Positions 1-51,367 of a stretch of 64,000 bases of DNA are shown here, in pieces. This DNA is from Pomacea canaliculata (taxonomy: Eukaryota > Mollusca > Gastropoda > Architaenioglossa > Ampullariidae). How positions within the stretch are numbered: position 1 is the first letter of the stretch; every line of letters starts with the position of its first letter. Location: NCBI RefSeq assembly GCF_003073045.1, contig NC_037596.1, positions 15,193,012-15,257,011 on the forward strand, given 5' to 3'. The position numbers and the translations under genes are program-made. The notes below the pieces were generated by a model. That model searched no databases. It saw nothing but the letters and a program-made list of their open reading frames with translations, and was not told the DNA's origin.

Positions 1-183
1 ATGAAGACCCAAGGAAGAGAAAGGTTTTCCAGAACTTTAGGTCTAACAGACAAAATTTTCTTTCCGTTAAATACGTCACCACACGCAAATAATTAGTAAA
101 ACAAATTTGAGTTAAGAAATACTGTGTTTTGCAACAACAACAAAAAAAATCGCTACCATGAGAGATAATGTATATATACTCAC

Positions 184-830
184 ACGAGAATGTCTTATTT
201 CTGAAACTGAATGTTCTGTTTGAAATCCCGATGCTATTGTTGATAAATAAAGTCCAATCTTCCTCACACCTGTCTGTAGTTAAATTAAGAGTCAAGGTAA
301 GATCTGGAGGTTCGCCGCTGACCTTACAATTAACTTCTTTTTGGGGAAATTCCTGTGTTAAATCTCTTATCCAGCAACTGCTGATATTTGTGTGAGATTT
401 AAGCCTGATACTCATGACTCCTTTTTCAATTATGAAATCTTCGCCATTAGTGCCAGAAGACTGAGGAGGACCTGAAAGAGTATTCAAACGTTTCTTTTTA
501 TTTTAGTTTTGATAAACTCAAATGGTATACGAGTATAAATGTATGTCCCAACAACAAATATCATCCATGTTATAGCGCATCTCTTGCTTAAACCAATTTA
601 TGATAAAACGATGCATAAAGTAGAAATTAAACATATAAGAGAGGTCTAATCACAACATTTCAATTGATCAACAAGTAAACTTATCATATTTTATGTGATT
701 TCTTGTTTGATGTCGCAGGTTAGTGTGAGCAATACAGTATTAGCTGACAATGATACTCACAATTTAACATCGCACATGGAAGAAAGAAGCACAGAATAAA
801 TAACCCGAATAAAGTGCTGTGTATCTTCAT
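184..830 (-). CDS. Family A gene A0, short form: signal peptide + one Ig-like domain (partial, runs off left edge)
   Basis: Two exons are visible on the minus strand. The first (830 to 761) starts at ATG and encodes a 23-residue signal peptide (MKIHSTLFGLFILCFFLPCA...), ending in phase 1 before a GTGAGT donor. The second (471 to 184) follows a CTTTCAG acceptor, is 288 nt with no stop, and ends at GTGAGT, again in phase 1. It begins CPPQ, as does exon 4 of A1 (A2 has CLPQ), and shares the pattern of a Cys pair, a NLT repeat in a strand-like segment and a closing NxT series, so it is a diverged third family A domain. The cysteine-rich and Ig exons found between signal and this domain in A1 and A2 are absent; the intron is only 289 bp. 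Later exons would lie left of position 1. The product should be a secreted or membrane recognition protein; function is inferred only. Confidence 0.65.
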
Positions 831-2484
831 GCCTGCTTTCTCAACCTTCTTCTCTGAAAGCATTCACACAATAACACAAGCAGAGTTTTCCGTAAAAACA
901 TAATTAGTTTCGCATTCGCACGTTAATAATCACTTTAAGGTGTCACAGGATGTGTACATCTACCAGTTGTCTTCCTCGTCCTTTTGCTTCCTTATTTTGC
1001 TGTAGTTTGAATTTCAACCACTAACATGTACGAAAGATAAGATTCATTTCTATTTAGTGACTCATTATCGTTTAGCCTATTTTTTCCATGCTGTGCACCA
1101 TAGTAATGATCAGTACAAAAATCCTGTGATAATCTCTAAATGCAGAGAAAAGTGTAATTTAGTGATGAGTGGTATTTCATCCATTTCTTTTATTTCCCAT
1201 TTCTCATTGTTCTTATCGTGCCTATCTTCATCTCGTTATCACTCACTTCTCATTAATCTTTCTCTTTTCTTCATTCCTTTCCATGTTCTGTTGTTGTTTG
1301 CTCACTCTATTGAACCTTGCCTTACTAAGACATTAATTACTCAAACAGAAAACTAGAAGAGAGACTAAAAAGTAGTGATGTTTATGTGTCACTGTATATA
1401 TATATGTGTGTTAGTGTGTGTGTTGCTTTCTAATGTTTGTGTCATGTCGTCTGCATTGCTTGCGTTCCTTCACATTCTCTAGTATTTTAAATAAATAAAA
1501 ATACATCGTCTTGGTTTGAATGTTCTGGGCCGAAGCAGAAACTAAGTTCTCCTCACAACAAAAGCAGTGTGTGGCCTCCCGACATTAAAAGGCTCAGGCC
1601 GAATGTCGTCGAGGGAAAAGCAAGGTTGAGTGTAAAAGGTCAACTATGTATGAAAATTTCGCAGGGCAAGATCAGACCTGCTTCGTGAAAAGTTGCAGCT
1701 GGTGACAATCAAGCAAAATATCTTCCATTTTTAACAGTGAATATAATAAATGCTTAGGGAAAAGTTTAACCGAGTATGTATAAAAAGTATTAATTGAAGA
1801 AAGGAAGCTTTAATGTTTGCAATGTGATCAAAGAGATTAGATTTGTTTTACTCAATTTATAACACCATTTGCACTCTACCCCACTGCATTTAAGAAACAC
1901 CTTCATTAAAAAAATGTATCCACAATAAGAACAGAACGAAACGCTTAGATAATCCTTTATTCATGTAATGGGGAAAAAAAAACAGGATTAAAAAAAGACG
2001 GGAGACAACCATTGCTTTTTCGACGCATTCCAAGACATCGAAACAAGTTTTTATTAATGCCCCTTATCGTATACCAAGACATGCCTTGAATGTAAAAACT
2101 TGGGTAAGGTTAAGTTAACCCTGTCTGCTTGTCTGGCAGTGTTCTAATCACAACAGACATTTTTAGCAGTAAGCTTTCCTTTACTCTGTTTTCTAATAAA
2201 GGACTTTGAAGGTATTAGAAATATTTACATAAACAGCAGCCCGTTCCATATGTAAACAGTTCCCGCTCCGTAGGGTATTTTGGTCATGAACACACGAACT
2301 AAATATATGAACACTAATGTCAAAGGGTAATAACACTGGGTGGCGTACAAACTATAGGCTTCTCGCCTTAAAAGATGTAGTTTAAACTCTTGCAACTTAA
2401 AATCTGTTGGATTTTTCTTTTCTCTAAATCAATACACAGAAATTTGAATTCATATCGACAGTACTTACTCAGTATTACAGCACC
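831..2484. other. No gene seen, AT-rich upstream region of A0
   Basis: I see no exon with credible splice sites or homology to the neighbouring families here. It should contain the promoter of A0 on the minus strand. The short open frames, such as the one at 1057-1356, have no motif, no splice context and AT-rich composition. Confidence 0.4.
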
Positions 2485-2596
2485 TGTTTTGTTTTGTTTG
2501 TTTTGTTTGTTTTGTTTGTTTTGTTTTTGCTTTGTTTTGTTTTGTTTTGTTATGTATTTATTTTTTGTTGTTTTGTTTCGTGTGTTTTGTTTTGCA
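2485..2596 (+). repeat. (GTTTT)n-type simple repeat
   Basis: A run of TTTTG/TTTG units, slightly interrupted. It creates apparent phenylalanine/cysteine/leucine-rich open frames that are not genes. It lies directly upstream of the acceptor of the relic exon at 2624 and could have served as, or expanded from, its pyrimidine tract. Confidence 0.85.
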
Positions 2597-2623
2597 CGTA
2601 TGTTTTCATTGTAACATCTGCAG

Positions 2624-2688: not shown

Positions 2689-3422
2689 AAAGCTTGCTTC
2701 GGAAATGTTTTACACTAAATGTGTTATCAAAAAATCTCGCGAGGACAGAAATGTGGTGCAACTTTTGGCAACTACAGCCCCAACAAGGTTTTCGACGAAG
2801 TAGATTCTAGCTCTGGACTAACGGAACACTGTCTACAATGAATTTTAATATTATTGTCGAAGGTCTTAGTGTGTGTGTTTGTGTGTTGTTTACTTTGTAT
2901 GAGTGCGTGCGCAAATGTTCAAATGCTACTACTTGCATCTAATCCTGGATATTTACTTTAGAAACTCAAATTTCTAAAAAAAATGATGTAGAAAGATATT
3001 CTGATGTTTGAAATGAACGAATGAATAGATCGGAAGAAATGGAAGGCTACATATTGTCCTTATAAAGTTCCTCTCGTGGACAACATGTGCGTTTACATGA
3101 CTTTTAAATTCACACGAAACTAAGTCGTGTTAGAAATACATTTCGTTGTCTTCCAGTTTGAGATTAGAGACCATTAAAAAGGTAAATAAATCTTGCATCT
3201 TTGAACCCAGCTTTAGTGTTTGGATCTGCTGATTCGTGCCATCATACCCAATGTCAACCAATCTCTGTCAACGGACATAGTACCATCTTCTTTCAATTAT
3301 CCCGCTTCTAAAAAAGTTCATTCTTGATCGCAGACATTATTACTTTGTCATATATGTAAGAAATGACCTGACAGCATGTGTATCCTGTGTCACGTCACAA
3401 GTGAGGACATGAATGTTGTCAG
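2689..3422. other. No gene seen
   Basis: AT-rich sequence with a short TG-rich run near 2868-2890. No exon or element recognised. Confidence 0.4.
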
Positions 3423-3578
3423 CCTGTAGCCCTGACGACCTGCAAAACACCTTCATCGCTTATCCCAACAGCAACATCCGGGGACTAATCAACTTCGGAT
3501 GCAGCTCTGAGTCCTCAGTGGAGAGGTACATGGAGCGGTGTGTCCAGACCACCGGTTGTCTCGCCCTGGATTTTCACG
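3423..3578 (+). CDS. Orphan symmetric phase 1-1 exon encoding a Cys-rich module
   Basis: The segment lies between a TTGTCAG acceptor and a strong G|GTGAGT donor. It is 156 nt, open throughout, phase 1 at both ends. It encodes about 52 residues with cysteines at CSPDD, FGC, MERC and TTGC, and an AYPNSN motif. The base composition is richer in GC than the flanks, as in the other exons. I do not recognise the domain with confidence; the Cys spacing is loosely PAN/apple- or WSC-like. No matching signal or partner exon is seen before A1 begins at 4564, so it may be an upstream alternative exon, the end of an unrecognised gene, or a stranded exon from shuffling. Confidence 0.4.
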
Positions 3579-4563: not shown

Positions 4564-6828
4564 ATGGGCAGACTGTATTATTATTTATGTGCTATGATAC
4601 TGTTGGAGCTGTTTCATGGGGATTGGAAAACCAACGTTTTCGCTTGTGAGTGTTGGATATTGTAAAATTAAAAATGTGAATGGAAGTTTTCTACCGACAA
4701 TTGCCTATCCACTTCAAAGAGGATTTGTTAACATTCCACTTTTTGTTTGTATTTCTTATATATATATATATTGTAAAAAAAATCGACAATGCAGTATTTT
4801 TATAATCTGTTTCAGGCACACGTATGCTGACAAATCAAACATTTTTCGAGGAAATAACAGCCAAAGAAAACACACAATATAATTTCAGCTTTCGACCGAA
4901 AGATGAACTGAGAGAGACTGCCAAAGACTCGGTGTTTATAATTGAAGTCAAGTTGTGCGACAATGGCAACAGTCACTTAGTTTGCAGATGCCGATGGATT
5001 TCTGAAAATATTTCTCCATGCAAAAATATGGGAAATGTCACGATTTGCGATGTCTACAACTCCGAAATGCTTTTATCTATGCTTATAAAAAGGAGTTATA
5101 GAGACCTAATGTGGGAGCTAAGCGGCCCGGTGGCGCAACGGTTAGCGCTGTTAGCGCCTGTCACCAATACAGTGAAGGTTGGCTGCCCTGAGTTCATTTC
5201 TCGTCTCGGGCACGCTGTTCTTTCTCTGCAAGTGGCATCTGTTTACAGGGCTGGCCGCCCTCCGCCAAGGACGGTCCCAAGCCCGGCTGAAAAAGGAGGA
5301 GGGTTGGGCGTGGGGCCAGCACCCCCACCCCGTAAAACAAATCCTTGCTACCGAAACATCGACAACAGTTAAGACTGTAGTCGATGGCCTATGCCCCAGG
5401 AGGGGTGAAAGGGCCTAAAAAAAAAAAAAAAAAAAAAATGTGGGAGCTATACAGACACAATTCTGCACCACGGGTAGTTAAACTCACTTCACTACATGTT
5501 AGATGTAAGTACTATTTTATTTTACCCTCATGTTTATGATATTAAATACCTGAAACGACATTTGACAATGTGTTGGAGTTAGTTTTAAAACTAATGTTAG
5601 AAAATATTAGAATCTACACTTCTAAGAGTTATTTTGTGTCTCCAGACCCTGCAAATGTCACAGGGTTGCAGGTGAATGGACAAGAAGTTAACCAGACTCG
5701 TGTTATTGACGAAAAACAAGAGGTTATTGTCTCGTGCTTCTTCACCAATGGCAATCCTCTCGTCAGTGTTCGCCTGATGGACGACACAGGGCGAGCACAG
5801 AGTTCAACGACTCATGGACAAGGACCCCTCACCCTGTCTCTCGGACAGTTTCGCTGTCAGGATGTGTGGCCAACCATCAAGTGTGAAGCTCCAGAATCGG
5901 AACGTAACCGATCTGTGGTAATTTTTGGTAAATGTAAGTAGTTTGGTGATTTTAAATCAATCAATTAATCAGTCAATCAATATATCAATCAATCACCCTT
6001 TTCTTCCATCTTGTTCCAGGCCCACCTCAGTTTTTGCACACTGACACTCAAGTCTTAGCGTTAAGAAGAGTTCTACAGGAAGGTCTCACACTTAGACTGA
6101 GATCCTATACCAGCGACATCAAGAAATGTCACATGACCAGGTTGTCTCCTCAGCCAGCGTACATCGAAGTAACATGTGGGTTGGCCGGAAGTGCCCCCGA
6201 GTTTAACCTGACCCTGCGTTTTACTGCAGATTCATATATTGGAGAAGGAATTTGGATGTTACATGCCATAACAGAAGCAGGCAGCTCAAATATTACCTTT
6301 ATGATAATCAATAACACTTCTGAGTGTAAGTATTAATAAAGAAATCGTTAGAGAAAATAAAATGCTGCATCAAAAGCACATGTTTGTCTAGACAGTATAA
6401 AATATAGTTAGTTTTATCTCAGATTTATGTAACAGCTGGATGCATTATTTTAGTCTGTTGTCCACAAATAATTTAACATTAACATACAGCATGATGTTCC
6501 ATTAATGCAAATGGCTAGGCCTCTTGATAGCACCAAGTATACCTTTGTCACTTTGATTATTTCAATTCAGTGATTATATTAAAATGCACAGCTGAGTAGT
6601 ATATTGCTGACCAGTTCTAAACTGTTATTGACCTATTTTAATTAGACGATTACACTTTCGTGCACATACATACAAACACACACACGTTTCCTAGCACATT
6701 TTTGCTAAAGTTGAATACGAGTTCAGTAAAGACGAGTGTAATGTAACCAGAGTAACCAGGTTATTTGTACTTCACAGTTGGTAACCAAGGACCTGCAATG
6801 ACGTCCGGAAACAAGAAATTAAATACAA
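4564..6828 (+). pseudogene. Family A gene A1: three-domain Ig-like protein, exon 2 broken by a SINE
   Basis: Exons: 4564-4645 (27-residue signal peptide, MGRLYYYLCAMILLELFHG...), 4816-5504 (cysteine-rich domain with the SINE inside), 5646-5933 (288 nt, Ig-like), 6020-6325 (306 nt, second Ig-like, starts CPPQ), 6778-6828 (51 nt, polar linker). All introns are phase 1 with GT-AG ends. Exon 2 carries CDNGNSHLVCRCRW, then CKN and VTIC, and ends near WELYRHNS as in A2 (WELYRSNA). The Ig exon has NGNP, FRCQDVWP and CEAPESE. Without the SINE, exon 2 is 360 nt, the same as A2. With it, the frame runs into the SINE and stops near 5370, leaving a secreted one-domain fragment unless the SINE is skipped. 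No transmembrane exon is seen before B1. Confidence 0.75.
5108..5449 (+). mobile_element. tRNA-derived SINE with poly-A tail and 13-bp target duplication
   Basis: The 13-bp duplication AATGTGGGAGCTA occurs at 5108-5120 and 5437-5449. Between them the element starts GCGGCCCGGTGGCGCAACGG, which contains an RNA polymerase III box A-like TGGCGCAACGGTTAGCGC, has a box B-like stretch about 60 bp further on, a body without homology that I recognise, and a poly-A tail of about 22 bases. The inserted length is 329 bp, not divisible by three. Near-perfect duplication and intact tail suggest a recent insertion. It lies inside exon 2 of A1. Confidence 0.88.
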
Positions 6829-9726: not shown

Positions 9727-12700
9727 ATGATTGTTATTTTGTTTTTCAATTTGCTTTTTGTCCTGTGTGCTACAGGTAAGTAATAATAAAGAATATAATA
9801 AGAGACAAAAAGAAAACATGACAACCTGCACACATCTAAATCGTTTCCAGCTGACCTTTGTATTGTAAGCAATCTCATATTCTTGCTAAACAGAAAGAAA
9901 AAAAATTGCATCTTAAAACACCTCAGACCTCAAACACAACTTTTTAATGTTAAGCTGACTTTCCCGTAATAGCATTTCGAGACTTTCTTTTAGAAATATT
10001 TTTAGAAATATTCTACTTTTTATTCTGCTTTATTTTATTTTCGGTAAAATTTTGTGATAATCAAATTGGGCACAAGAAAACAACAAAAAGAAACTTCTTA
10101 AGAACATGTGCAAAAATAACTGTGGATTACCTTACTCAGCGTTTCTACAAAATAAAATGGGAAAAAGATAGAATGGGGACTTTTCAAAAAAGAAAAGTAC
10201 TAATAACAATGTTGCATGTTTATCATAAAATAGCGTATGTACCATTTCAAATAACTAAAAATGTAACGAAACTAACTGAATGAACAAGTGATTATGCACA
10301 AGATTTCTACCATATAGTTTGGGAATATGTTATTTCAACAAAACCAATATAAATAAACTTGATGTCAGTATTCTGGGAGAAAGTGCCATTATCATACTGT
10401 GGCATTTTTAATCCTGAATGTGTCTTAAGACATAATTGAATTACTGCATGGACAAAGGTTTGGTCTCATTCGGAGTTTTGCTTCTTTCGTGGTCGAAGGG
10501 AAAGACATTGCCAACCCTCTTCCGCTCCAGGTACCGTATCCAAATTTAGTGCAAGTAAAACCAAACATTGTTCTTCGATAGACATTTTGATAAAACATCA
10601 ACAAGCGAAACAAAGCCAAAAACACTGTTAATGAAACTTGGTCCTGGTAGAGGTACTCCGGTTCAAGAAAAGTAGACAATTAGTTTCTTATCTCTAGATA
10701 TCTTTGAAATGGTTTAGTAGCCCTCGTAAATTATTGAATCTTCGTAATTCAAAATTAAGTATACTTTCATGCATAGCATTACTTTTACTGGATGTTCTTT
10801 GAAATCTACTGCATGTTTCTCAGTGTTACTGCTCTTGTTTGTTTGTTGTAAAATTTATATCCCAAGCACGTTTATGCGTGTATGCGCGCTTGTTTCAGGT
10901 AACCCAAACACAGAGTGTGATGCATCCGAAATGGGAAAGCTAACGTGCAAATTTTCCACAAATATCCACTCTACACAGACGGATTTTTCCGTTTATTTTC
11001 ATTCCGATAAAGGTCATGAAGGTATTTAATTATTTCCAATTCTTGATGAAAATAAGCAGTATTAGTATCTAGCATTGCGATAGCAGTTCATTTTTTCTGA
11101 TTTTTCCGTAGATCGTTTGCAGGTAGACATAAGATTGGGTACATCCAACAAAATAACATGTTTGAAGGAATTCGCATCGCCCAGATTTGTCAGTTAAAAG
11201 TGTCGTATAAACAGTAAAAACACTTAATGACAGATTTATGTAACGCTTCAACTATTCATTGAATTATCTTCTCGTCAACTACAAAGGCTTATAGTTAATC
11301 GTTTTTTGCGTGACACAAGGCCAATAGCATTAATAGGAAAAAGCATAGATTCAACACATAAGGCCACTTTTATTCGTTATGTGGGGACGGTTTTTACGAG
11401 GCTATGACATAATTATGGCATTACAAAATTTAAATGTCTTAATAACTAGTACAGATAAAATATTTTACAGAAGGATCGAGTAAGTTGATATCTTTTTAAA
11501 ATTAATTTATTTTTACTGTACGATGTGAAAGACATAGAAAATTTATTACTTGATTCTGGCAGTTGATAGCATGTCATTATGATAACTTTTCTTCCGTTGC
11601 CCCAGTGAATTTGCTTAATATTTCGATTTAATAACGTGTAAAAAACTATTCACATAAGCCTAATTACATATTTAATAAGCCTAATATTATTTATTTTTTT
11701 GGACCAACATTTTGTTAAATCGGACCAAAGAACACGAGAGTGAATAAGAAAAAAAGGCTCAAGTCGCTTGCGTAGAGCGGATGTAAAGGGGATCATCAAC
11801 ACATGGCCAATAGCTGCCAAAAATAATCAGTGAGACATAATTAGCATAACTAACAAGATAGTTTGGATGTAAAAAGATCTACTACAAGGCAACTGTGTGC
11901 GCGTAACCTAAGACATAAATAATAATCTGGACCAGTCTATAAGCAATAGACGCCATTTTTAGTAATCGGTTTACGGTTTATTGCACAGAGCTGCTGGTTG
12001 ACTGTGTATGGGTGGATGACGAGCTTCAGTGCCTTACCCAGGAAGGCTTTGAGTGCAAGCAGCCGGTTTCGCAAATTGCTGAGATTAGTCTGCCATCACG
12101 ATTCGTAAACAGTTCCGGGACATACAAGTGTATTGCAGGCTCTGGACATGGAAACGTCCAATCGTGTCAAGTTGGTAAAAGGCATCAAGAAAGCCAACAA
12201 GAAAAGAAACAGGAATTTATAGAACTTGAGAACAGCAACTATCCTGATGACAAAGGTAAACTTTTTTTTTAGTTTATGCACTTTGTTATAGAACTACATT
12301 CGTTCCAAAAGATGAATCTACTCTCTGTCTTTCTCTGTGTCCCACGCAGCACATTTACAGTCCCTTTACTGCCATTTGACGATTATAACAGATAATGGTA
12401 AGATTATGACATAATGAAACCGGTAATATTGCCTAGAGCAGTGATGCCCAACCTTTTTCGGCCAGCGGGCCATATCCATTTCGGACAGCCGTGTCGCGGG
12501 CCACTTCACCGCAAAAATACAAAAAAATAGAGCAGATACCATTTTTTTATTAGAAACAAGTTCTACTTACCATTAATTATGTGGTAATTAGTGGGATATT
12601 TGAAGTTGTTTTCCCGAAACCAACTTCTGAATGTCCAGCTGCATAGTAGAGACACCAAGTCGGAGCACTGAATCGAAATGTTCGTCCATCGATAAAAAAT

Positions 12701-14003
12701 TGGGAAACGCCCCTACGTGGGGATAAATACTTCTTCTTCCTTTTTTTTCGTTTTTTTTTAAGGTCTTCTTTTATTACTAACATGCCGATTTCCTGCACTG
12801 TGGGCAGAAGTTTCGCGGGCCGGGTGGCACCGCGTCGCGGGCCGGATATGGCCCGCGGGCCGTAGGTTGTGCATCCCTGGCCTAGAGAATTCAGATACAT
12901 ATCACCATCAACACTGTACTTTGATCACTAGCTGCTACACTGTGAAAAAAAACACTATAATGAAGTAAAGCTTCTAATAACTTTAAGACATTATTGCGTT
13001 ACAAAATATATAAAAATATATAATAATAATAATGACAATAATATTATTATTATTTAATTCACTGCAGGGAAGAGTTCTCTAGTTCCTTTGTATGCCGCCA
13101 TCGGATCTACTTTGGGAGTGATCGCAGTTGCCGCAATCATTTTGGTTCTGCTTGTGAGGCGTAAGATACAAAGAAGTTAGTATAATTTTCCCCTGATTAA
13201 AAGAATAAAATATGATCAGATAACAACCGTTCATTAAGACACTAAGTAATTAAACTTAAATTAACCTTAGCTAAACTAGTGCATTGAGACACTAAATCTT
13301 TTATTCTAGAAAGCACAGTTCCTATGCCTTGTCTGTTTTAACTCCTTTTCAAGAAATTCTATATGTTGTCCTCCTACACTTTATGTGTCTTCTGTATCAC
13401 TCACCATTGTAACAATTTAAAGACTGTTTTTATATACCTTAAGTCCATCATCCAAAAGTTACTTGTTTAGTTAAAACAGTTTTAATCTCAAAAGAAATAA
13501 TTTTTAGCATGCGCACATACTTTACAGAACGTTTATTGTTGTGAGCTGGTTGATTTATTATTATACATTTTTGATGTTGTTTAAAATGAAGAAAATATTA
13601 ATGTTTACTTTTGTTTCTTTCAGGAAATAGGAATTTTAAACTGTAAGTTTCTTTCAACTGTTATCTCTTGACACATATAGTTTAGACAAATTAAGTTCAC
13701 TCGATGTGATACCTTTTGATCTGTAAATCAGTGGAAGTAGTCATAAATAACAATTTCATTAAGGAAACGACAGCCATACACTCTAGTACACACTTACTCC
13801 GGTTGATGTTCAAATACTCTTTAATAGACATGGATTTTTATACACACGAACGTGCACGCCCAGCTTTTAATTTCTAGTAATCCATTAACTTTAGAGGCTA
13901 ATTCGTTTATTTCTTAACTAATGCATTTCCATCCTAAAATCACTTTTATAATTTCAGGGAATATGTAGGAGAAGAGGAATGTGTAAGAATGTTTCTTGAA
14001 TAG
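9727..14003 (+). CDS. Family B gene B1: Ig-like type I membrane protein (203 aa)
   Basis: Coding exons: 9727-9775 (signal MIVILFFNLLFVLCAT; exon begins 9689 after an AG acceptor, so a 5' non-coding exon is expected), 10899-11021, 11989-12255, 13068-13175, 13624-13642 (19-nt microexon), 13958-14003. Phases are 1,1,1,1,2; total 612 nt. Exons 2 and 3 form one Ig-like ectodomain: TEC, LTC, VDCVW, LQC, FEC, GTYKC, QSC. A Gln/Glu/Lys-rich stalk follows, then the transmembrane helix (LYAAIGSTLGVIAVAAIILVL) with a GSTLG motif and a basic stop-transfer RRK. The tail after the microexon is short (EYVGEEECVRMFLE) and lacks the TEN motif of the other copies; a GTGTAAG at 13980 could be a donor to a further exon instead. 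Likely a cell-surface recognition receptor (inferred). Confidence 0.82.
12439..12879. mobile_element. Non-autonomous hAT element (MITE), 441 bp
   Basis: The ends are CAGTGATGCCCAACC and, inverted, CAGGGATGCACAACC, flanked by a perfect 8-bp target duplication GCCTAGAG (12431-12438 and 12880-12887), which is diagnostic of hAT transposition. The subterminal regions are rich in GGCCCGCGGGCC palindromes. No transposase frame. It sits in the intron between exon 3 and the transmembrane exon of B1. Confidence 0.88.
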
Positions 14004-20297: not shown

Positions 20298-23200
20298 ATG
20301 AAACTATTAACCACTATGGGGTATTCCTTTAAACATAAAAGGACTTTTCTGTTGATTCTGCTGTTTGTTGGTACTCATGGTAGGTACACTGTGTAAAATG
20401 CATTTCATTTCGGCTTTTTTGTTTATTTTGTTTTAAAGTAGTGAGAGGCAGACTGACGGTTACGAGAGCTTTTGTCTTAATTTCTACTAAAGAGGGAGGT
20501 TCCTTGTTTGCCTTGGAATAAAATATGAACAAATAGAAGAATGCAAACCAGTTCTTTTACAGAAGAAAAGTGTAAACTGAAGTTAACGATACACATTATG
20601 GACACCATATGACAAAGGGAGATAATTTTATTGACGTTCCAAAAGTAGTTTTTAAAATAAGCGCCCTTTATTTATATTTACGTCAAATGAACATAAATTA
20701 TGGTTCTGTACATTTAATGATTTATGCATTGTGTTTATCTTTTGGTGTTTTTCTTGATATTCCTAGTGTGCACTCTTAGCGTAAAACTTAAGCGTAAATC
20801 ACCTTAAAATCGAAATCCAATATATACAAAGCATAAAGCTATGATATACGTTGTATTTTCGATTCTTCTGAAGCTTATCCATGTGTGTGCGCGTGTGTCT
20901 TTGTGTGTGTGTTTGTTGAGGGTTTTGCTTTTTAGGTAACACAGAAACAGAATGTGAAGCAACTGATGGGATGATATTAAAATGCAAGTTTCCGAAAAAC
21001 ATCGAATCGACTGAAACCGATTTTTTAATTTATTTTTATCCTGACGACGGTAAAACAGGTGAGTTGTGCTTATGTGATTAATTCGCCATAGTTCTAAAAA
21101 TATAAATCATAACTGTTTTGTATAGACATTACAGGGTTTTTTTTAGAGTACCTCGTTTCTTATTGTTTTGCTTTAAAAGACAAATGAAGCACACACATCA
21201 CATACACACAAACAAACGTTTATTTCAAGCTTTATCAGAATATTCTCTTTTATGCTCATTAATGTAAGCACACAATTGCTGAATGTTACGTTAACGCTAA
21301 GCCCGGCAAGTCTGTTTGAAGATAAGTAACGGGATTTCTGCTAATCACAATATATTCCGCAGAGCTCCTCGCTGACTGTTCGTGGAATAACAAAACGCTT
21401 GAATGCATCTTACAAGACAGAATCAAGATAAAGCAGCCTGTCTCGGACAAAGCTGTGATCAGCCTTCCTCCAAGACTTGTAAGAATAGATGGAACATACA
21501 AATGCATTCCTGATGGCGCTTACTCTGAAAATTCAAAAGCCTGTCAATTTCATCATGAAAGCCAGAAAGAAGGAGAAGAAAGCCAGGATAAGAGTGAAAA
21601 TGGAGTTCATCATCAAAAACCCGTAGAAAGCCTACCAGAAAAACACCACGACCAGAAAGGTAATAATTTTCTATTTTTGTATTTTGCTTTAAATTGAATG
21701 TGGAATAATCAGTTGTTCATCCTTACCCTTTATTTCTGACCAACCCAAGATGAGGCGTCATAGTTATTTTACAACTTGGAGCCCGATGGTGTCACTCCGA
21801 CCCATGCTAGGCAAACATGATGCCTGAGATTCCAATTAACAAATAGCTCCACTGGCTCTGATTCATCGCGGTGCCGTTGAACTCACATAGTGAAGGTCTT
21901 GTCCACTCTTGCACGTTACCCAACCACAACTTTTTATGTTTTCCTACGCGTCTCTTGCTCTTAACGGAAACCTGCAACGCCATCTTTGATATGCCTCCAT
22001 GCCAAATGACATGTCAAAAACAACTTGAACCGCTGTACGACTGTGAGAAGAGGCAGCTGTTGACCCACGAGACTGCAAACCCGTTTGCGAACAAAATTGT
22101 TCGACATTTCCTCTCTATAGGAGATACGAAGCATTCTCCTGCCGCATTTCGTCTCAAACGCTGCTATCTTCATCTCTTCATCCGTCAGCAATGTCCAAGT
22201 ATCGCAGCCATACAACAGCACTGGGACAACGAGAGACCTGTAGAGCCTAAATTTCGTTGCAAAAGATACGTTTCTGCTGCTCCATATTTTGTTCTCGTCA
22301 TTGCCGCCATCGCGGTTTCGATCCGGCAACGAACATCTTCCGGGCTACGGCCATCACTAGGTAGGGTCGATCTGAGGTATTTGAAGGCCTGAACCTGTAC
22401 CAGTTGTTCTCCGTTCAGCTTCATCCTTCTATGCCTTGCTCTTCTCCGTGCTGATCTCAATCCCATACTGTCGTGCGCATAAGTCCAACTTGTCCGTTAG
22501 ACTGTAACTCGCAGTTGCTGCCTGCTATCACTTCTATGACATCAGCAAAGCGGAGGTTTCTTAACGGTCTTCCTCCAATCGAGAAGGAGGATTTGTGGTC
22601 TTCTAAAGTTTTGTGCATCACCTTCTCTAGGTAGATGTTGAACCACACGGGGTAAAGAAGCAGCCCTGACGAGCTCCCCTAGTGGTGAGGAACGACTTCC
22701 CGCACCTTGTTGTTTACGAGAACAGAGCTTCTGAACCCATCATACAGGGCTTTGATGGTCAGGATCAGGTCATAGTTCACTTTGAACGATCACAGTACAT
22801 TCTACAGTCCCTCATGCCAGACTCAATCAAACGCCTTTCTGAAGTCGACAAAGTTGTGGTAAAGAGTGTTACCCTGGCGAAGGTTCTTTTATGCTATCGT
22901 TCTCTCGCTAAACATTAGTTGATCGTATTGTGGCAAACCTTAGGCGGCACTGGAGAACCTTGAGCATAACCTTGCTCGTGAGAATGATGAAGCAGATTGT
23001 TAGACGTTTCTTGAATTGCAGCTGTCGCCCTTCTTCGGCAAGGGCACCAACAACGACTGTAACCATTCACTTGGCCACTCCTTGGTTTGCCAGATTTGGC
23101 GACACATCTTCGTGAGCAATTTCGTCAGCTCCTCATCCCCTTCTTTGATAAGTTTCGTGGATATATAATCGAATATTGCAGCTTTTGCAGTCTGCCTATC

Positions 23201-28799: not shown

Positions 28800-30446
28800 T
28801 GTTACTTGTGTAACAACTATAGTTAACCCATGCTAACGCTAATATCTCAGCCATCATTATAATTATTGTTAAGTTTTCCTTTGTGATATTTCACTGTTTT
28901 ATATTTACTTGTATTTAGTTTCATTTATCTTTTATCTGCCTATATTTCTTCAAGCTTAGTCGTAGTAGACTACTAGTTGTCTATAGAATTTCTCCATCCT
29001 CCCCACGGGGTTAAGGAATAAAAAAATTTCAAATTCAACAAAGACCATCCTATAAAAATTATTCTTCAAAACAGGTGAAAGAAGTATCTGTAGACGGCAC
29101 ATGCTGAAATAGTGCAAACTAAATGATTTTTTGTGAAAGACATATTGCTTTTTCTAAAGTTTTTGTACCAGCGGTCAACTACACTGTGACATTCTGTGGC
29201 AGCTGGTCCTGCAGACCTACACAATTATATATATATATTAAAATTTGCACTTATATGTGAAATACAACTTACTGAAGCAAAATTAATAATTAATTTCTCA
29301 ACAGTCTTGAAAGATAGTGAATTTGTACTTAATGTTTTGTAGCTCAAACATGCTGAAGATAAAGAGAATAAATTAAAATAATAAAATGCTAATTGTTTTA
29401 TTTCATGAAGTAAAAAATGTATACATGTAAGCAATTTATTTATCATACTTACATTGACCTGTGCTATTAATGAGTGGAAAGGTAATATTTGAGCTGCCTA
29501 GCTCTGTTATGTTGTGTACCGTCTAAATCCTTTCTCTAATCCTTGACTCTACAGAGAAAAAGGAGGGTTAGGTTGAACTCTGGGGCACCTCCGCTTAGTT
29601 TATTATTAAATACAGCATAGTCCGCTACCATTGAGTTAAAGTGTGGGAGAGATACGCTGGTAAAAGAAGAGTTTGCAAAAGGACTAATGTTAAGAAAAGC
29701 AGCTGAAACTCTATTGTACACAAAAAGCAGTTTATGGTGTGCTAACTGTGTGATAAGCAACATTTATTTTTTACTTAAGGTTTATACATGCTCAGATAGT
29801 GTACTGGGATATCAAGTAGAAAGCAATATAGCTTTTGATGACAAAACCAGTGCAAAAAAATCTTTTCTCATCTACTCCAACTTGCCTAAGTAGAAAAATT
29901 TAGTCTCAAACAATTTGTTAAGAAAAAATTTCACTCACTTACAAAAAGGACTTTCTGGTCACTGTCATGTCTTATATTATGTTGGGTCCTCCAGGTAAGA
30001 CTGTTAAGTAACTATAAAAACACCATCTGGTTTTTTATTCATTATTTATATAAAGGCCAAATGATGGTTCTAGTCTTATTAAAGAATGGGTCAATTATAT
30101 GATGAGAAATATATGCCCCACAGTTGCAAGAGTTGTCACCCTTCACTCAACAGAAAAGAGAATGGTTAGACATAATATTCCTGATATTCTTATCTTTTGT
30201 GACACTGTAAAAAAGTACCTTGCCATTTGCAAGTAAACTGACTGTAATGTCGGTTATTCAAATATTTTTTTAAATTATCAAGTAGTGATATCAGTAAATA
30301 ATAAAAATAACAAGTTGGATCACGTGTTGTGTCTCTGAGTAGTGTCATTCATCTTTTACCATCTTCAGAGTTAGTGAAAACAAAGATTACCAAAGACAAA
30401 AGGTGAATACCCAGAAACAATTGCATGTATTTTTACTGTGTTGAAG
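28800..30446. other. 3' flank of B3; no gene seen
   Basis: AT-rich. A GGTTAAGGAATAAAAAAATT stretch near 29010-29040 looks like another retroelement tail. The rest should include the 3' UTR of B3 on the minus strand. No exon recognised. Confidence 0.35.
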
Positions 30447-33400
30447 TCACAATGTGTCTGAGCGCTGTTTCCGTTTCTCATTTACAATTGTCCTTGTTAT
30501 TTCTAAATTATTGTCATCTTCAAACTGTTTTCGTAATGAGGAGCTCCGCTGGCGAGAGGAAACCAAAGGAAAAGGCGGTGCTAAGTATTTTGTTTCCTCA
30601 ATTTTTCTCTTGTTTTCAGTTAATAGGAACGAACAGTATTCATCGTGTTGAGCTGTTCTGTTTCTGAAAAGACAAAAAAACAAAAAAAAAAACAAAAAAA
30701 AAAACAAAACAAAAACAAAAACAATAAAAGAGTGTAAACAAGTGAATAAGCAAAACCGAAATGCCCAGACATTTTATGTTGTTGCAAACCAACGCATTCA
30801 TCAGCATTCATTTTTCAACAAGCGCATATGCTTTTATAAGTTATAGAAGGTGTTGTTTATATTATACATTGTCGTTTATAATTGAATAAATGCTCGTTAG
30901 AATTTATTATATTGCGCGTTTTTTGCAGATCATAATAAAATAATATCCCTTTACATTATACATAAAAAGCTTTACAAATTATGTAATAAATACTTATAAC
31001 AATTATTAATCTTACCTAAGATGAAACAAGCATATAATATCATGTATAGGAAGACGGGCTGTCAAAGTAAGGCGAATTAATAAATATTATCTCTACCACC
31101 AGCATGTTTTAAACATTTTGTAAAAATGTTACTACCGAGGAATAACTTACGATTTGCGAATATTCTTATCTGAAACAAGCAAACAAAGAAGTCGTTTTCG
31201 TCATTGAATTTCAACCGAACACCTGGTTATTAGAAATAAAGTTACAAACTCGACTTTATCTCTAAAAATTAAAACAAATTCTTTCTGGTAAAGAACTGTG
31301 CATTTTAAAAATTACTTAAATTGCAAACGATCTTTAATTTCTAATAATAATTATTGATATCAAACTTCGTGAGTAAATTTTAGTTAATTTGTACTAAATG
31401 TAGAATTGCAAACAGAGTATTTTATATCACTTGTTTATAACTTTAAAATAATTTATTGTTTAGATTTACTATCTTTTACTCTAAGTAAAAAATATTTACT
31501 TTTGTTAAGAAACTTCTTGTACATAACAACGCCGACCGTGGCCAATAGAACAAGTGCAACAACTCCAAAAACAATGCCGAGAGTCTCTTCAGTACTGCTT
31601 CCTGCTCCTGAAAAAAAAATGCATCTTTTAGTATGTATTTAAAGAAATTTTTTTAAAAAACTAGACAAAAATGTAAACTGCAGTCAAATAAACACACAAT
31701 ATTATGTAAAAATGAAATAATTATATGTGTTACTTATAATTTTCAAAGGTGTATTATTAGGTGACTCAAATGTGTTTTCAGATCATGGACCACTGCTTAT
31801 ATATAGATTTTAATAAATAAGCGAGCCTAAAATGGAAACACTGGATACTCTGTGATGTTTTTGTTTCAACGGAACAAAAAGATCAGAAATATGAAGGACA
31901 TTTTTTTAATGTGTCACTCTCAAGAATGAAAAAGCACGAACGATAAAAGCATCAAAAACAATAAAATGGTATAACAGAAATGGGTATAGTCATCATATGA
32001 ACATAGAACAATCCTTACTATGCCTAAGGCACAAGCACAGATAAATTCTTAAGATATCATTAAGACCAATAATTTTGTCCATGAGGCTTTTTCCTGGTAG
32101 GATTTAACATGTTTTTGAAGGCAATCAGTTATAAAAAATGAGCATCTGACAGACCTTGGTATGCCAATAATTAGCTCATACCTTTGTCACCATGTTGTTT
32201 GAGATCGCCTTCTCTTTGATGTTCATCCTGGCTTTTTTCTTGTTGTCGTTCACTTTGGTTCTCGGAAAATTTACATGATATGGTGTTTTCAGAGCTGGAA
32301 CCTTCAGGAATACAACTATATGTTCCAGAAAATCTTAAAAATCTGGTGGGAACACTGATGTCAGCAACGTCTGAGACTGGCCACTTGCACTTGAAGCCCA
32401 CTTGTTCGATACAATGAAGCTGGTCACCTACCCATGCACAGTCTACCAGCAAATCTGTGTAATTCATGGAAACGTGATTATTTGAAATATGGTAATTTCT
32501 TCTAAAAAATGTTTGCAAAACTGACGCAAATTAACTTCAGATTCTTTTAACAATATTCACATCATACAAAAAAATCAGATGACATTAATATCACTTTATG
32601 ATGAGGTCTAACTAAAGGCCAGTAACAGTATAAAAACGCATCTGTTACTGAGTGAATAGCCAAGTAGTTACATAATATGAGTCCTCGAATAAACCATCAT
32701 TTCCATCCCCGTGAGGTGGAAATTATTTGTCTTCAATTGATCTTACCTGACATCTTTAAAAGTTAGGAATGTCAAACAGTACGAAAGCTGGCGTGGACAT
32801 CACTTTCCCAATAAACAGCTGGCTACGGGATGAGTTCGGTCTCTAAGTCTCACTTCCGGAAGACAGAAAGACTAGATGACTATGTAATTACTACTTCACG
32901 AAATGTAATTAATGTAAACAGCGAGTATTTATTGTATGAGTTTTATCGAGATGCAGAAATAAAAGGTTACCTGCTTTTCCATCGGCAGAATGAAAGTAGA
33001 CCGTGAAATCTGTCCGCGTAGTGTTCAAGTTTTTCGGGAAAATGCATCTTAAAGCCACTACTTCTGATGAAATGCACTCTGTTTTTGTGATGTTTGCTGC
33101 AACACACATAAATACATAAAATGTCTTGGGACACTGTACGGACATCTGTTCTCCTGGTACTCGGGTTTCTTTCATCTCCCTTTTCCCTCACAGGGTGAAA
33201 TCCCTCTAGTTTCCCGCCCAAATAGTCACCGAAAGCAAGGCAGTAAACAGTTAAACACAAGTTTTTATCGCAAAGATGTGTGCCTTCTCTCTAAACTTCA
33301 ACTAATCTGTATTTAACCGGGTAGTGTCTCTGCTAGAGCAAATAGGTACAAGGTCGAAGGTTATCGCGAGAAGTGCACGGTGAGTGCGGTATTTTTATTT

Positions 33401-33814
33401 TATATTTCTCATAGTTTTCCACAGAATATTAAAACAGTATCTTATGACCCGGTTCTTCCCGTTGAGCCACTTAGTTTCTATCTGTAAGATCAGTGTGAGA
33501 GCTGACATGGGGGATCCTGACATGTCACTGCAGCCTGACACCTCGTATTCTTACTTGACTGACCAGATATGCATGAATGAACAACCAACAGACTCCAAAT
33601 ACACATTCTTTGATTTGCTACTCAAGTCACAGCACAGTCTCTTTTTCTATTAGTTTGAAAGTGTGACCAGGACATTTTAGAATCTTTTCAAAACAAACCA
33701 ACAAAAAATAAAAAAAAGAGTGAAAGCAAATTAGTTTGAAGATCACATTTGTAGTCTATACTTACCTTGGACAGAACCAATAAGCAGCAGAAAGAAGCAG
33801 AGAATTTCATTCAT
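30447..33814 (-). CDS. Family B gene B3: Ig-like type I membrane protein with long tail (263 aa)
   Basis: Coding exons on the minus strand: 33814-33766 (signal MNEILCFFLLLIGSVQ; exon reaches 33863), 33096-32971, 32454-32182, 31607-31500, 31169-31151 (19-nt microexon), 30663-30447. Phases 1,1,1,1,2; total 792 nt, no internal stop. A non-coding first exon at about 34611-34564 ends in GTGAGT. The ectodomain carries all seven cysteines (TEC, LRC, VDCAW, LHC, FKC, GTYSC, ISC). The stalk is rich in Gln/Glu/Lys/Asp. The transmembrane helix is TLGIVFGVVALVLLATVGVV (GIVFG motif) followed by YKK. The tail is the longest of the four, about 78 residues, with DEYCSF, LLTEN, KYLAPPFP and Arg/Ser/Lys-rich segments. 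It has tyrosines but no canonical ITIM or ITAM. A surface signalling receptor is plausible, by inference. Confidence 0.85.
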
Positions 33815-35992: not shown

Positions 35993-38431
<2,439 letters not shown>

Positions 38432-43968: not shown

Positions 43969-45392
43969 ATCTGACAAGGATGGTCACAGATCTCTTCAGT
44001 TCTGAGCCCAGTGCCTCACACGTGATGACCGGCCAGACGTCCTGACAGCCAAACCCTCCCAGAGACATCACGAGAGGCCCTACTTCATTTTTGTTAGAAT
44101 TCCGTGTGTTTCCTGTTTCGTTCACCAGTCGCACGGTGACAGGAGGGTTTCCGTTGGTAAAGGAGCACGAGACGTTAACCTCTTGGTTCTCTTCAACCAC
44201 GACAGTCTCGTTAACTTCTCGTCCATTCACCTGCAACCCTGTGACTTTTGGTGGGTCTATAAGAAAAAAATAGAATATATAGTGAGTGTGTTTTGATATT
44301 TTGTATTAAAAAATATTCTAGAATGTTATACATACCTTTTGCGCAAAAGAAACTCGTAGCTGTTCTCCCTTTTCTACCCATTTCTCTCTCTCCCACTAAG
44401 TTATATTAAGATACATTTGTTTAAAATCAGAAGAAGCAGCAGAAAGAAAATAAAACAAAGATCAGGAAAGTAGACACGAACACATTTTTGTTAGTAGGTG
44501 CAATAACTGTCTTTAGTTGCAACTCGCACTGCATCGTCTTCATTGTGGATTATTGTCTTCGACATTCTCTCAAGGAAAGTTCTCAGTGCATTCGTTATTA
44601 ATCATAAAGAAATATAAAAACATTTTCGAATTGCTTACAATTTACTCGGAGTTTCGTGTTCCTTAACACAACCAGAGGTGAATTTAATCTGATGAGTTCC
44701 CACAGGATGTGACTGTAGGTCCGCTTGACGAGCAGAGAGAAGCGCATCACGTGTTTATCAGCCTCACACATGGAAACATTTCTGTGATTAATGCACCTGA
44801 TATTATCGCCAGTGATATTATCTGATATTATCCGGCATCGACACACATCGTAAAATTTCTCATTTTCACACAACTTTATTTCAATTACAAAAGCCGTATC
44901 GTTGAAAGTGTGACTGGTGTTCGCTTTCAGGTGGTAGACAAAATCAGCCTGTGTGTTCTCTTGAATTGTTAGGTTCTCGTGGAGTGCTTCATTGTTATCT
45001 CTTTTTGTACCTTCAAGACAATCAATGTTTAAAGACTGTCAAGAATCCTAAAAAAAGTGTTGTGTTTATCTTAACTAATGTAATTATTTATCAATTTAAA
45101 TTATTTTTAAAATCTACGACCGTCATAGAGAGAAAACAAACTAAGAGAAACCAAAAGGGAAAGAAAATAACAAAAACAAAAATGAAAGAGAAAAGTCAAA
45201 ATCAACAACAAGAGTACATTATTAAGCAAACGGAAATGTTTCATAACGATTTGATACATTCTTAGTCATCATAAGAAAGTTTAGTAATAAATATATACAA
45301 CATATTAAAGATGCACAAAACTTACAGCTGAGAACGCCTTCATTTTTATAGATGAAGAGCAACATTAGGCACAGATAGGTCTGAATGTTCAT
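43969..45392 (-). CDS. Family A gene A3: cysteine-rich domain + Ig-like domain, fourth exon missing
   Basis: Exons on the minus strand: 45392-45326 (22-residue signal, MNIQTYLCLMLLFIY...), 45010-44639 (372 nt), 44256-43969 (288 nt). All phase 1, GT-AG. Exon 2 has KLCENEKFYDVCRCR, RCINHRNVSMC and WELIRLNS, with a four-codon insertion relative to A2. The Ig exon has NGREVNE, NVSCSFTNGNPPVTV, FGCQDVWP and CEALGSE, and ends at a GTAAG donor (43964-43968). In A1 and A2 the next Ig-like exon follows within about 90-230 bp; none is visible here down to 42 kb, where a telomere-type repeat and a hAT MITE are found instead. The gene is probably truncated, or splices to a distant exon. Open for 242 codons. 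Confidence 0.75.
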
Positions 45393-47911: not shown

Positions 47912-50861
47912 TCAACAAGACGACTGCTCCGTTGAGTAGGAAAAAAACTGATCTTTCACAGTTGACCGACTTGAGTTGTCATCTCTGCTACTGTTTTCAG
48001 TGGACACCAAGGATGGGGACTCTTCATCCGATTCCTCTCTGAAATAAGAATGACAATGTACAAAGAACAACTTGTAATCTAGAAGACAATGCTTGTATCT
48101 CAGTATGTGGGTATGTGTGAAAGCACATACAAATGTAAAATTATGATGATAATAATATTAAAAATATTCATACTGCTGCTAATGATGAATGATGTTTGAT
48201 AATGTCAATGTAAAGAATTATTCTAATAATTTTGCACTCACAAAGCTTAACTGTTTCAGATTTAAAGAAGGATACACTTTTACTCTGACGTTTTCTATTT
48301 TATAATTTAGTGAACAAGAGTTTAACCCAGAGAAAACAATTGCGAAATTCTACAGGTTTTTTTTCCTACAGTTAACTTACGGTTTATGCATCTGGGAATC
48401 TGAAAAACAAGAAATGATTACATTTACTAAACTGTGTAAAACAATTTACAGAAACTATTCATCAGCTGCATTTTCTTAAAACCAGCAAATACCACTGTGA
48501 TCTAGGTGACCTCTTTAGTGTATTCATTGGAAGCATTATCTTATCAACATCTACAATATTAAATACTATCTAGATAGGAAAACGAACTCTTATCAGTCTT
48601 TCATTCGCTGATAACCACTAACAAACAAAATTGTCATAAATCGTCAGATTTAACAGTTTGCCACGACTACATACCACGTGTCTCCTTTTAACATTATAGA
48701 GATGAGTGTCCTACTCTTTTCTCAAAGAATAAATAAGTATTATTGTGTATTGTTAAACGATTAACTACTACGTATATGATGTATTATTAGTATTACTGTT
48801 AGTTATATTTACATATAGGCATAATAATGTTCTGTACAATAATATAAAGTTTTATTTACTTCTGCAAATTTTCCTGTACAGCACAATGACGATCACAATC
48901 ACTCCAACGGCGAGAACTGCTCCAATAACAAGGCCGATAACCCAAACAGGAAAGTCACTTGATGCTGAGGAAAGATGTTTTTTAGTACATGTGTTTAAAT
49001 GACAAATAAAAGCAGAAACAATTATAGAAAGAATATACAAAAGAGTAGCATACAATGCACAAAACTATATCATTGTAAATATATACATTTATGCTCTATT
49101 ACTTTTGAATTCAAACGTTTACCTATGACCATCAAGCATAAACTAGTAAACTTCTATCAAAACTATTTTGTAGAACACATAAAAATACGTAACTTTATAT
49201 TACATATAAATGTTTAATTAATAAATCATTCGTGTAAAGTTCTATGAGGAAAAATGCATTTGAAATCATGTTTGTATCTTTGTCTTAACTCAAAAGAAAT
49301 GCAAACATAGTATTTAGTGTTTACCTTTGTGATCATAATTGTTTTCGGTTATGTTAATTTGCTGAGTTTTATTCTGGCTTTCTTTTTGTCCCTCACTTTG
49401 GTTTTCAACAAAATGACAAAAGTTGACTTTGCTGGGGTCACCTCCACTAAGTGTGTATCCGATCTGGCTTGGTCTGGTAACAAATGTCTGAGGTACTTCG
49501 ATTTCTGCAGTATTTGGCACAGGTAACCTGCACTTGAATCCTTCTTGTTGGATGCACTCAAGCTCGTCCCCCTCCCATGCACAATCCACCAGCAGCTCTG
49601 TAGGATGTATTGAAAACAGCGAAGTAGCTTTTTATCTTTAAACATATTTGAGTTGAGTATCATTAAATATGCAAGTTACATTTGCCACAACAAAAGGAAT
49701 CTACGATTTTACGGAACGTCAACAACTTAACTTGACCTTTTTTTTTGCCTATTTATTTTCTAAATCCATCGATAACTTGACCTAAAGTTTTATCCAACAT
49801 GTCACAGTAAAGTCGACAGAGTATTTTTAAAGGTAAACTATTTTATTGTCTTTGAGACTACTTTATTCAGGACCACCATTTTATGAGGAAAGTGGGTATT
49901 TATCGCCTTACCCTCACTGCATTACCTTTACTAATTATCCCTTTATAGTGTCGTGTACCTGTTCACGACAGCTGGGTTTACTGGAAGATTAACTCACCAG
50001 ACGTGTATTTACACCAAAGTTGACTTAGTTGTAAAAACTTTTTTGAGAATTAGACACTATTGACTATTTAAAAGTGATATGCATATATCTTTTCTATAGA
50101 GACAGAGAGATGTGATATACCTGTTTTGCCATTTTCGTCATAAAAATAAACTGCAAAATATGTCCTCGTAGAGTTTTCCGGAAATATGCAGTGTAGGATA
50201 GCCGTGTTAGAGGAATTATACTCTGTTTCCATGCTACCTGCAAATTGCACGTACAAACACATATTAATGATATTACCAGACATAGTGGAGGTATTATTAT
50301 TTTTGCTATTAATAATAATAATAATAAGCTTCCAAGCTCCAAAGATTTGCTCAGTGCACTTTAAATAAAGCATGAAGGGACTAAATCATCAACATCCATG
50401 CACACATACCCGTGTACAACAGGCGCACCCACAAACACACTCATACACACAGTAAATTATTCACAACCTTTATGCAAGTTCATGGCCAGGAGAAAGTCAC
50501 AGTGAAGTTTAAGTTGTGGTTTTAAAAAGATGTGTCTTAACTTTGACCTAAAGGTGGTAAAAGAATCAGAGTATAGAAGGGTAAGCTTAGTGTCAGAAGA
50601 TGAGCGAAGAAATGGTGCGGGCGTGTAGGTGGGAGTGAGCTCAGTGAGAAACTGAGGCCATACGGACCACGACTGGCACCCAGTGAAGAAATACTTGGAA
50701 ACTCCGCATAAAACATGCGTTGTACATATACAATTATTACTAATAAATAAGAGTGTAGTCATATGCTAGGGGAAATGCCTGTTATCGACAGATAAAAACG
50801 AGATACACTCACCTGTTGGCACTAGACGTACCACAATAACCAAGAAGAAAATAAGTTGCAT
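47912..50861 (-). CDS. Family B gene B4: Ig-like type I membrane protein (229 aa) lacking two cysteines
   Basis: Coding exons on the minus strand: 50861-50813 (signal MQLIFFLVIVVRLVPT; exon reaches 50911, so a 5' exon exists), 50237-50121, 49597-49325, 48964-48860, 48399-48381 (19-nt microexon), 48038-47912. Phases 1,1,1,1,2; total 690 nt, open. Exon 2 reads TETEY where the other copies have TEC, and exon 3 reads IGYTL where the others have GTYxC, so two conserved cysteines are gone together; LHC, VDCAW, LEC, FKC and NFC remain. The stalk has several NxT/S sites. The transmembrane helix is WVIGLVIGAVLAVGVIVIVI (GLVIG) followed by YRKICR. The tail has EESDEESPSLVSTEN and is Ser/Asp/Glu-rich, ending EQSSC. 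Surface receptor by inference. Confidence 0.85.
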
Positions 50862-50911
50862 CTTGCCAAGGATAATGAGAGGACTTTTGAACAAAGCCAC
50901 GAACGGACTAA

Positions 50912-51367
50912 CTGCAAGCAGATAATACATAACAATTAAAATTAGCATGTTTTAACGCTGGTTGAACAAATAAATCAGGAAAAGAAGGGATCAGTGAACC
51001 ACACAGTTTAAAATTTTTTATAATAATGGGATTCTGCTGACCCATATGAGCAGAGATTCCGTTAACAACATTTTTTTCGGCTTGAAATTATCCGACTTCT
51101 GTTTTCTAAGGGAAGTGAATCATTACGGGTGACTTAGGGATAATTTTTCTAATCGAGTTCCCTCCCATTAAGTAAAGGTGGGCAGCGCGCAACTTTTTTA
51201 TTTTGTTTATTGAAACACATTTGCCCAGTCTTATTTTTTGACACATTAGCTGATAAGAAAAGTCTATAATGAGTCCAGAGAAATACATCATTGAAGGTAC
51301 ACCATCTCTCCAGTAGACATTTTGTTGTCCTGCAATATTACTCAAAAGCTGAAAAATTGCTTTACGC
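50912..51367. other. Upstream region of B4; no further gene seen
   Basis: AT-rich. It should contain the B4 promoter and its non-coding first exon, which I could not place. The host-gene cluster appears to end here. Confidence 0.35.

Follow-up and report, generated by a model that had tools for sequence, protein, structure and literature searches.

We analysed a window of 64,000 nucleotides of the Pomacea canaliculata genome (G000:C7:15193012-15257011) and searched the whole genome (440,159,624 bases, 24 contigs) for relatives of the genes that it contains. A six-frame comparison recovered two families of Ig-like genes, here called A and B, as four A copies (A0-A3), four B genes (B1-B4) and one A remnant, the A and B pieces together spanning positions 184-50,861. 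The resemblance between copies goes far beyond chance: the Ig1 exons of A pair at E-values of 6e-46 and 2e-36, and for the B second-half exons the E-values range, over their six pairs, from 5e-27 to 1.5e-11. The conserved exon lengths and phases described in an earlier note on this DNA, together with the pieces that it named, were recovered by the six-frame comparison and by spliced gene models. Every junction modelled for A0, A2, A3 and B1-B4 lies in phase 1 up to a micro-exon of the B genes, so that domains could be shuffled freely, and the end of the micro-exon lies in phase 2. All eight genes start with a hydrophobic exon that, judged by eye, resembles a signal peptide. The coordinates of all features are given in the table.

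Features of the A and B families in the 64,000-nucleotide window (positions in the window; SP, signal-peptide exon; TM, transmembrane exon)
Feature	Position	Strand	Exons and remarks
A0 TM exon, 5' part	1..42, running to window position -65	-	in-frame phase-1 exon, hydrophobic stretch FLFLGSSCVLCATIFTAAVILCVF
A0 Ig2-type exon, 288 nt	184..471	-	E-value 9e-10 against A1 Ig2
A0 signal-peptide exon	761..830	-	from spliced model
A1, tail-less clade, broken	4564..6828	+	SP 4564-4645, N 4816-5504 with insert, Ig1 5646-5933, Ig2 6020-6325, stalk 6778-6828
SINE-like insert with poly-A tail, in A1 N exon	5121..5437 (about)		flanked by 12-bp direct repeat ATGTGGGAGCTA
B1	9727..14003	+	SP 9727-9775, Ig half 10899-11021, Ig half and stalk 11989-12255, TM 13068-13175, micro-exon 13624-13642, tail 13958-14003; 203 aa
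B2	20298..25096	+	SP 20298-20379, Ig half 20936-21058, Ig half and stalk 21363-21659, TM 23762-23872, 31-nt exon 25066-25096
Orphan A Ig2 remnant	29460..29598	-	in-frame stop; 75% identical to A1 over 161 nt
B3	30447..33814	-	SP 33766-33814, Ig half 32971-33096, Ig half and stalk 32182-32454, TM 31500-31607, micro-exon 31151-31169, tail 30447-30663; 263 aa
A2, tail-less clade	35993..38431	-	SP 38359-38431, N 37674-38033, Ig1 36526-36813, Ig2 35993-36298
A3, tail-less clade	43969..45392	-	SP 45326-45392, N 44639-45010, Ig1 43969-44256
B4	47912..50861	-	SP 50813-50861, Ig half 50121-50237, Ig half and stalk 49325-49597, TM 48860-48964, micro-exon 48381-48399, tail 47912-48038

The B genes are made of a signal peptide, two Ig-half exons that jointly code for one V-like Ig domain (the second adding a charged stalk), a transmembrane (TM) exon, the micro-exon and a tail. 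These six exons are open through to the stop in B1, B3 and B4; no last exon was found for B2. The 19-nt exon that had been described as a constant of the family is indeed 19 nt in B1, B3 and B4, but its counterpart in B2 is 31 nt. A TM-like stretch follows the B Ig exon in all four genes of the window and in all seven of a 200-kb block elsewhere in the cluster (see below), and the tails behind it are short and variable, with no recognised ITIM or ITAM. B4 is missing both the TEC and the GxYxC cysteine, whereas almost every one of the other 16 aligned B sequences retains both, which suggests that these two cysteines may pair with each other. Several other elements were noticed among and beyond these genes. 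The B2 intron before the TM exon holds pieces (21961-23314, minus strand) that resemble a non-LTR retrotransposon, and a 16-bp GC-rich repeat in 38 tandem copies (25619-26230) follows closely on the last exon identified for B2. Beyond the receptor genes the right end of the window is more GC-rich, with a segment repeated at 51977-54276 and 59186-61063 (79-92% identical) and open reading frames at 62994-63935 (plus strand) that resemble a transposase of the hAT type. A recent hAT-Charlie expansion is described in excerpts of the published P. canaliculata genome paper (PMC6129957).

The exons of the A genes are similarly regular, with an N exon of 360 nt (A2) or 372 nt (A3), an Ig1 exon of 288 nt (A1, A2 and A3) and an Ig2 exon of 306 nt (A1 and A2) or 288 nt (A0), following in A2 a signal-peptide exon of 73 nt in the order N, Ig1, Ig2. 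A0 had been regarded as a remnant and is instead a short gene that leaves the window: its TM exon runs from position 42 to -65 and its ITIM/ITSM tail exon lies at C7:15191181-15191291, 1.7 kb beyond the left edge, coding for QLQAPVGKNSDGLVYGELDFSDKITSDVIIGTVPETQYSNILFATNADTSK before a stop. A type I layout can thus be seen in A0 through the TM exon, with the tail exon downstream and a candidate middle exon. A TM or ITIM tail exon was also looked for in A1, A2 and A3 and none was found, leaving A0 at the edge as the only exception in the window; A3 has no Ig2 exon and no convincing TM either. A1 has a sibling (locus L005, C7:15.544 Mb) in which the N exon is uninterrupted and which is 98.9% identical to it over 1.1 kb downstream of Ig2. 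The 51-nt phase-1 stalk exon that follows Ig2 in A1 is conserved in loci L003 and L006, where both of its splice sites are present. An open reading frame at 3413-3658 (plus strand) with an initial ATG has a cysteine spacing that we take as reminiscent of a PAN/apple exon.

Merging the genome searches gave at least 38 A loci and at least 44 B loci on C7 across 0.97 Mb, a tally that takes in three A and four B genes of the window and leaves out A0, which is without N and Ig1. The nine members within about 51 kb on which the earlier note had built its cluster are thus all present, but belong to an array of about 80 loci that extends beyond the window on either side and is not bounded at 51 kb. 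For the Ig1 query, the best 150 of 162 candidates were scored and all of these matches lie on C7: 89 at 11.19-13.28 Mb, 35 at 14.86-15.77 Mb, 22 at 17.08-18.45 Mb and 4 at 21.66-21.79 Mb. The N query, for which every one of 41 candidates was scored, yielded 39 matches. Two of these are fragments of a single broken copy; 37 of the loci lie at 14.86-15.83 Mb of C7 and one at 17.08 Mb. The B query yielded at least 104 matches (best 150 of 307 candidates scored), at least 44 of them within C7 14.858-15.801 Mb. Among the cluster loci listed, A and B alternate in 53 of 81 neighbour pairs, more often than the mean of 40.8 under shuffling (p 0.005), and neighbours share a strand in 67 of 81, again more often than the shuffled mean of 54.0 (p 0.0002). 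The 200-kb block (C7, 14.84-15.04 Mb), which partly consists of two copies about 65 kb apart, holds nine A genes, each possessing N, Ig1 and Ig2, as well as seven B genes, in one of which the first Ig half was undetected. This segmental duplication, the copy broken by a SINE, the remnant with a stop and a clade-wide loss of the tail (see below) bear out the birth-and-death evolution that had been proposed for the locus.

Matches outside the cluster were also observed. C7 carries 111 further Ig1 matches at 11.2-13.3 and 17.1-18.5 Mb (best 150 of 162 candidates). Most B-query matches outside the cluster, among those listed, are weak and lie on C11, where dozens of second-half Ig exons at 25-38% identity (5.83-7.13 and 22.0-24.2 Mb, among those listed) look like additional clusters of related Ig exons.

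To find what follows the Ig domains, the 5 kb behind each Ig2 of the 200-kb block were compared, which revealed one exon for the TM and another for the tail. An ITIM tail exon lies within 5 kb in seven of the nine A genes, and six of those seven match the TM queries. The gene at C7:14912270-14915965 reads through eight open exons to a stop (480 aa), with signal peptide, Ig domains, a single TM and the tail in frame. An exon between its TM and its ITIM tail (C7:14914797-14914862) contains an extra tyrosine in DALYENR, which fits a YxN (Grb2-type) motif. Genome-wide, tail exons occur at 31 places, all on C7 (23 from a first query and 28 from a second, eight of the latter new); motifs were read in the 23 exons of the first query, the eight new places standing outside the motif counts. 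The core of the tail is DGL[IV]YG[ED]LDF followed after about 20 residues by [ET]T[EQ]YAxI, with D1, L3, Y5, L8, F10 and Y29 invariant in all 23 and T27 present in 22. An ITIM ([SIVL]xYxx[ILV]) was found in 23 of 23 tails and a strict ITSM (TxYxx[VI]) in 19; the two Yxx[ILV] motifs are spaced by 23 residues in 20 genes and by 24 in two, the second motif being lost in the remaining tail (14990). In shuffled tails, an ITIM and an ITSM occurred together by chance in 0.2%. Several ITIM tails at C7 11.6-12.6 Mb were seen to carry an extra conserved PPPR[DNS]Y stretch. Once phosphorylated, ITIM and ITSM motifs recruit tandem-SH2 phosphatases, the usual partners of an ITIM, and a gene for such a phosphatase is present in the same genome as ordered SH2, SH2 and PTP exons on one strand within 9.5 kb (C2:35208148-35217598). 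We therefore take the tailed A genes to be candidate inhibitory or switch receptors.

A tail match within 7.5 kb was found for 12 of the 38 A loci listed and for none of the other 26. When 19 of the 35 Ig1 exons were placed in a tree, A1, A2 and A3 joined a ten-member clade without tails (support 98/99); two other tail-less A genes branch elsewhere. A2, compared with its copy at C7:15.57 Mb, has a dN/dS of 0.19 in N, 0.10 in Ig1 and 0.57 in Ig2 (0.29 together), and A3, compared with its copy in locus L046, has values of 0.34 and 0.70; with these ratios below 1, the tail-less genes are more than dead copies. Pairwise dN/dS was below 1 in all 22 exon comparisons (range 0-0.73), which points to functional genes, and the tails gave a pN/pS of 0.43 over ten pairs. 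No sign of averaged positive selection appeared in the 22 pairwise comparisons. Excerpts of a population study report many immune-related P. canaliculata genes under balancing selection (PMC11417965). The products of the tail-less genes may be secreted, may include an unseen exon or may be spliced into a downstream B gene.

The Ig1 domain of the gene at C7:14912270-14915965 scored 20.9 bits against Pfam C2-set_2 (cut-off 21), and the predicted model of Ig2 (pLDDT 78.9) resembles Ig domains and other beta-sandwiches; the model of N was poor (pLDDT 50.5), so that N counts as a putative Ig domain. When the profiles of N, Ig1, Ig2 and B were compared with one another, no mutual relation emerged (probability at most 1.65%), in agreement with the claim of two separate modular families of Ig type. 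The ectodomains had no detectable sequence relation to solved chains.

By architecture, the closest working analogy for the snail complex would be the FcoR/fester pairs of Botryllus schlosseri, in which, according to excerpts of the source, each fester-family gene adjoins its cognate FcoR, a receptor whose tyrosine motifs are ITIMs or akin to them (PMC12065747). Both systems combine type I IgSF proteins carrying ITIM-type tyrosine motifs with an adjacent second family; FcoR, as described there, has a V-type Ig, a sushi and two C2-type Ig domains, whereas the snail A genes have N-Ig1-Ig2 or one Ig and no sushi exon was noticed in them. Pairing and polymorphism in a single recognition locus have been demonstrated in Botryllus, again following the excerpts (PMC12065747), and would be expected by analogy in the snail. 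The Alr complex of Hydractinia, as summarised in the same source (PMC12065747), is likewise a tandem IgSF cluster with ITIM/ITAM-type tails, but is a cnidarian family, whereas the snail locus interleaves two unrelated families. Recognition loci of the FcoR and Alr kind govern whether tissues fuse or are rejected; the snail is a solitary animal. The likeness to Hydractinia and Botryllus loci, put forward from gene architecture before the tails were seen, is much strengthened by the ITIM motifs. Vertebrate ITIM/ITSM receptors (of PD-1, Siglec, BTLA and LILRB type) share with the snail tails the order ITIM then ITSM at similar spacing, and vertebrate paired receptors the juxtaposition of tailed and tail-less paralogues. 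The snail YGELDF followed by T-x-Y-A-x-I is, as we see it, similar to the PD-1 tail. The snail ectodomains lack a detectable relation to solved chains, and the likeness to vertebrate receptors is likely convergence.

Among molluscs, the PTC1/GRC and PTC2 loci of Biomphalaria are clusters of divergent single-pass TM genes linked to schistosome resistance, as excerpts of two papers describe (PMC7494358, PMC10875847). They resemble the snail complex in being gastropod clusters of TM genes with TM-less relatives, and differ in that the excerpts report no known domain besides the TM in PTC2 genes and mention no ITIM. Extreme divergence between alleles is a further mark of the PTC clusters. FREPs are described, in the part of the source available, as secreted and as requiring a fibrinogen domain (PMC7588048); together with VIgL they share multigene gastropod V-type Ig domains with the snail cluster, but the snail B models end in a TM and a tail. 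The comparison with FREPs that the earlier note had drawn was not upheld, as no fibrinogen exon (PF00147) lies at C7 14.8-15.9 Mb among the matches listed (best 150 of 481 candidates). Large clusters of fibrinogen exons were observed at C7 20.3-21.8, 27.6-27.8 and 28.6-29.1 Mb (best 150 of 481 candidates), with a few weak Ig1 matches beside them at 21.66-21.79 Mb (best 150 of 162 candidates). In bivalves, excerpts discuss the oyster receptors CgIgIT2 (PMC11999971) and CgSiglec-1 (PMC5877582) as molluscan IgSF receptors with ITAM/ITIM signalling and describe them as single genes, whereas the snail has dozens in a cluster with a second family interleaved; a cluster of Ig genes with FN3 and TM domains is described for Pinctada fucata, also from an excerpt (PMC9646362).

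On balance, and by a modest degree of belief, we favour the reading that the locus is a germline complex of type I IgSF recognition genes in which the tailed A genes are of inhibitory type and the tail-less A and B genes are their counterparts or partners. A products would have one or three Ig-like domains, one set adding a TM and an ITIM/ITSM-like tail of fixed spacing. Binding of a ligand would lead to phosphorylation of the tail tyrosines and to recruitment of an SHP-2-type phosphatase, damping the activation of haemocytes in which the receptors would be expressed. In the clade of A1, A2 and A3, the Ig domains would have been kept and the tail lost or never present, their products being possibly soluble, decoys or paired with another chain. 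The interleaved B genes, with their single V-like Ig, stalk, predicted TM and short tail, might provide the partner or the ligand-binding side. More tentatively, and with distinctly less confidence, we propose that this is an independent molluscan paired-receptor system, with dozens of germline ITIM/ITSM receptors bearing PD-1-like tails, tail-less or soluble counterparts and single-Ig partners on one chromosome, which would set the thresholds of haemocytes through recognition of self or microbes, and in which splicing from A to B is possible.

Four other readings compete with the favoured one. The locus could be an ordinary expansion for pathogen recognition like the Biomphalaria PTC clusters, with an activating or opsonic instead of an inhibitory output, an idea to which we give about one part belief to three of doubt: excerpts of the source describe in the same animal class clustered single-pass receptors with non-TM relatives beside the TM genes (PMC7494358), but the conserved ITIM/ITSM pair is a usual mark of receptors that inhibit or switch. 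ITSM-type motifs can also switch to activation, which leaves this reading some probability. It appears improbable, if by a little more, that the tails of the A genes serve in endocytic sorting, the proteins being scavenger or adhesion receptors with no inhibition involved. YGEL and YAQ[IL] do fit the YxxPhi consensus, but that signal needs neither the residues kept around the first tyrosine (L/V at -2 and F at +5, both 23/23), nor the T at -2 of the second (22/23), nor a near-constant spacing of tyrosines, and the presence of an SH2-SH2-PTP gene in the genome also speaks against it.

We judge it just as doubtful that the tail-less A genes are no genes of their own but are spliced on to the TM and tail coded by the next B gene downstream, forming a four-Ig receptor for which the first exon of B would be an alternative start. 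All A and B junctions are compatible in phase 1, the stalk exon after Ig2 is kept in A1, L003 and L006 with no TM following, and a same-strand B lies within 10 kb downstream of 13 of 26 tail-less but 1 of 12 tailed A loci listed (Fisher p 0.027); this contrast shrinks to 16 of 26 versus 5 of 12 when no distance cut-off is applied (p 0.31, listed loci), and the two B genes that follow A1 and A2, namely B1 and B3, carry signal-peptide exons of their own. That the cluster mostly consists of decaying pseudogenes we find very hard to believe, in spite of the A1 insert, the stop in the orphan exon, the lack of Ig2 in A3 and of a recognised last exon in B2, and a few matches elsewhere that contain stops, because 147 of the 150 Ig1 matches scored (best 150 of 162) are stop-free and dN/dS stays below 1 throughout, tail-less A2 and A3 included.

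What is already known in gastropods are clusters of single-pass TM genes (PTC1 and PTC2) and FREPs; no description of a gastropod ITIM cluster was found in open-licence PMC full texts. ITIM-type recognition complexes are documented in vertebrates. Excerpts of the Botryllus source place them also in a tunicate and a cnidarian (PMC12065747). A large lophotrochozoan ITIM complex, if true, would imply that animals have come to this solution repeatedly, here in a solitary species without colony fusion. Recognition receptors of inhibitory type may thus form a large family that a mollusc has built for itself, some of them with an off-switch tail of the checkpoint-receptor type. For P. canaliculata, a pest and also a parasite host, the cluster offers a specific candidate, open to testing, for the means by which haemocytes are kept in check or tuned.
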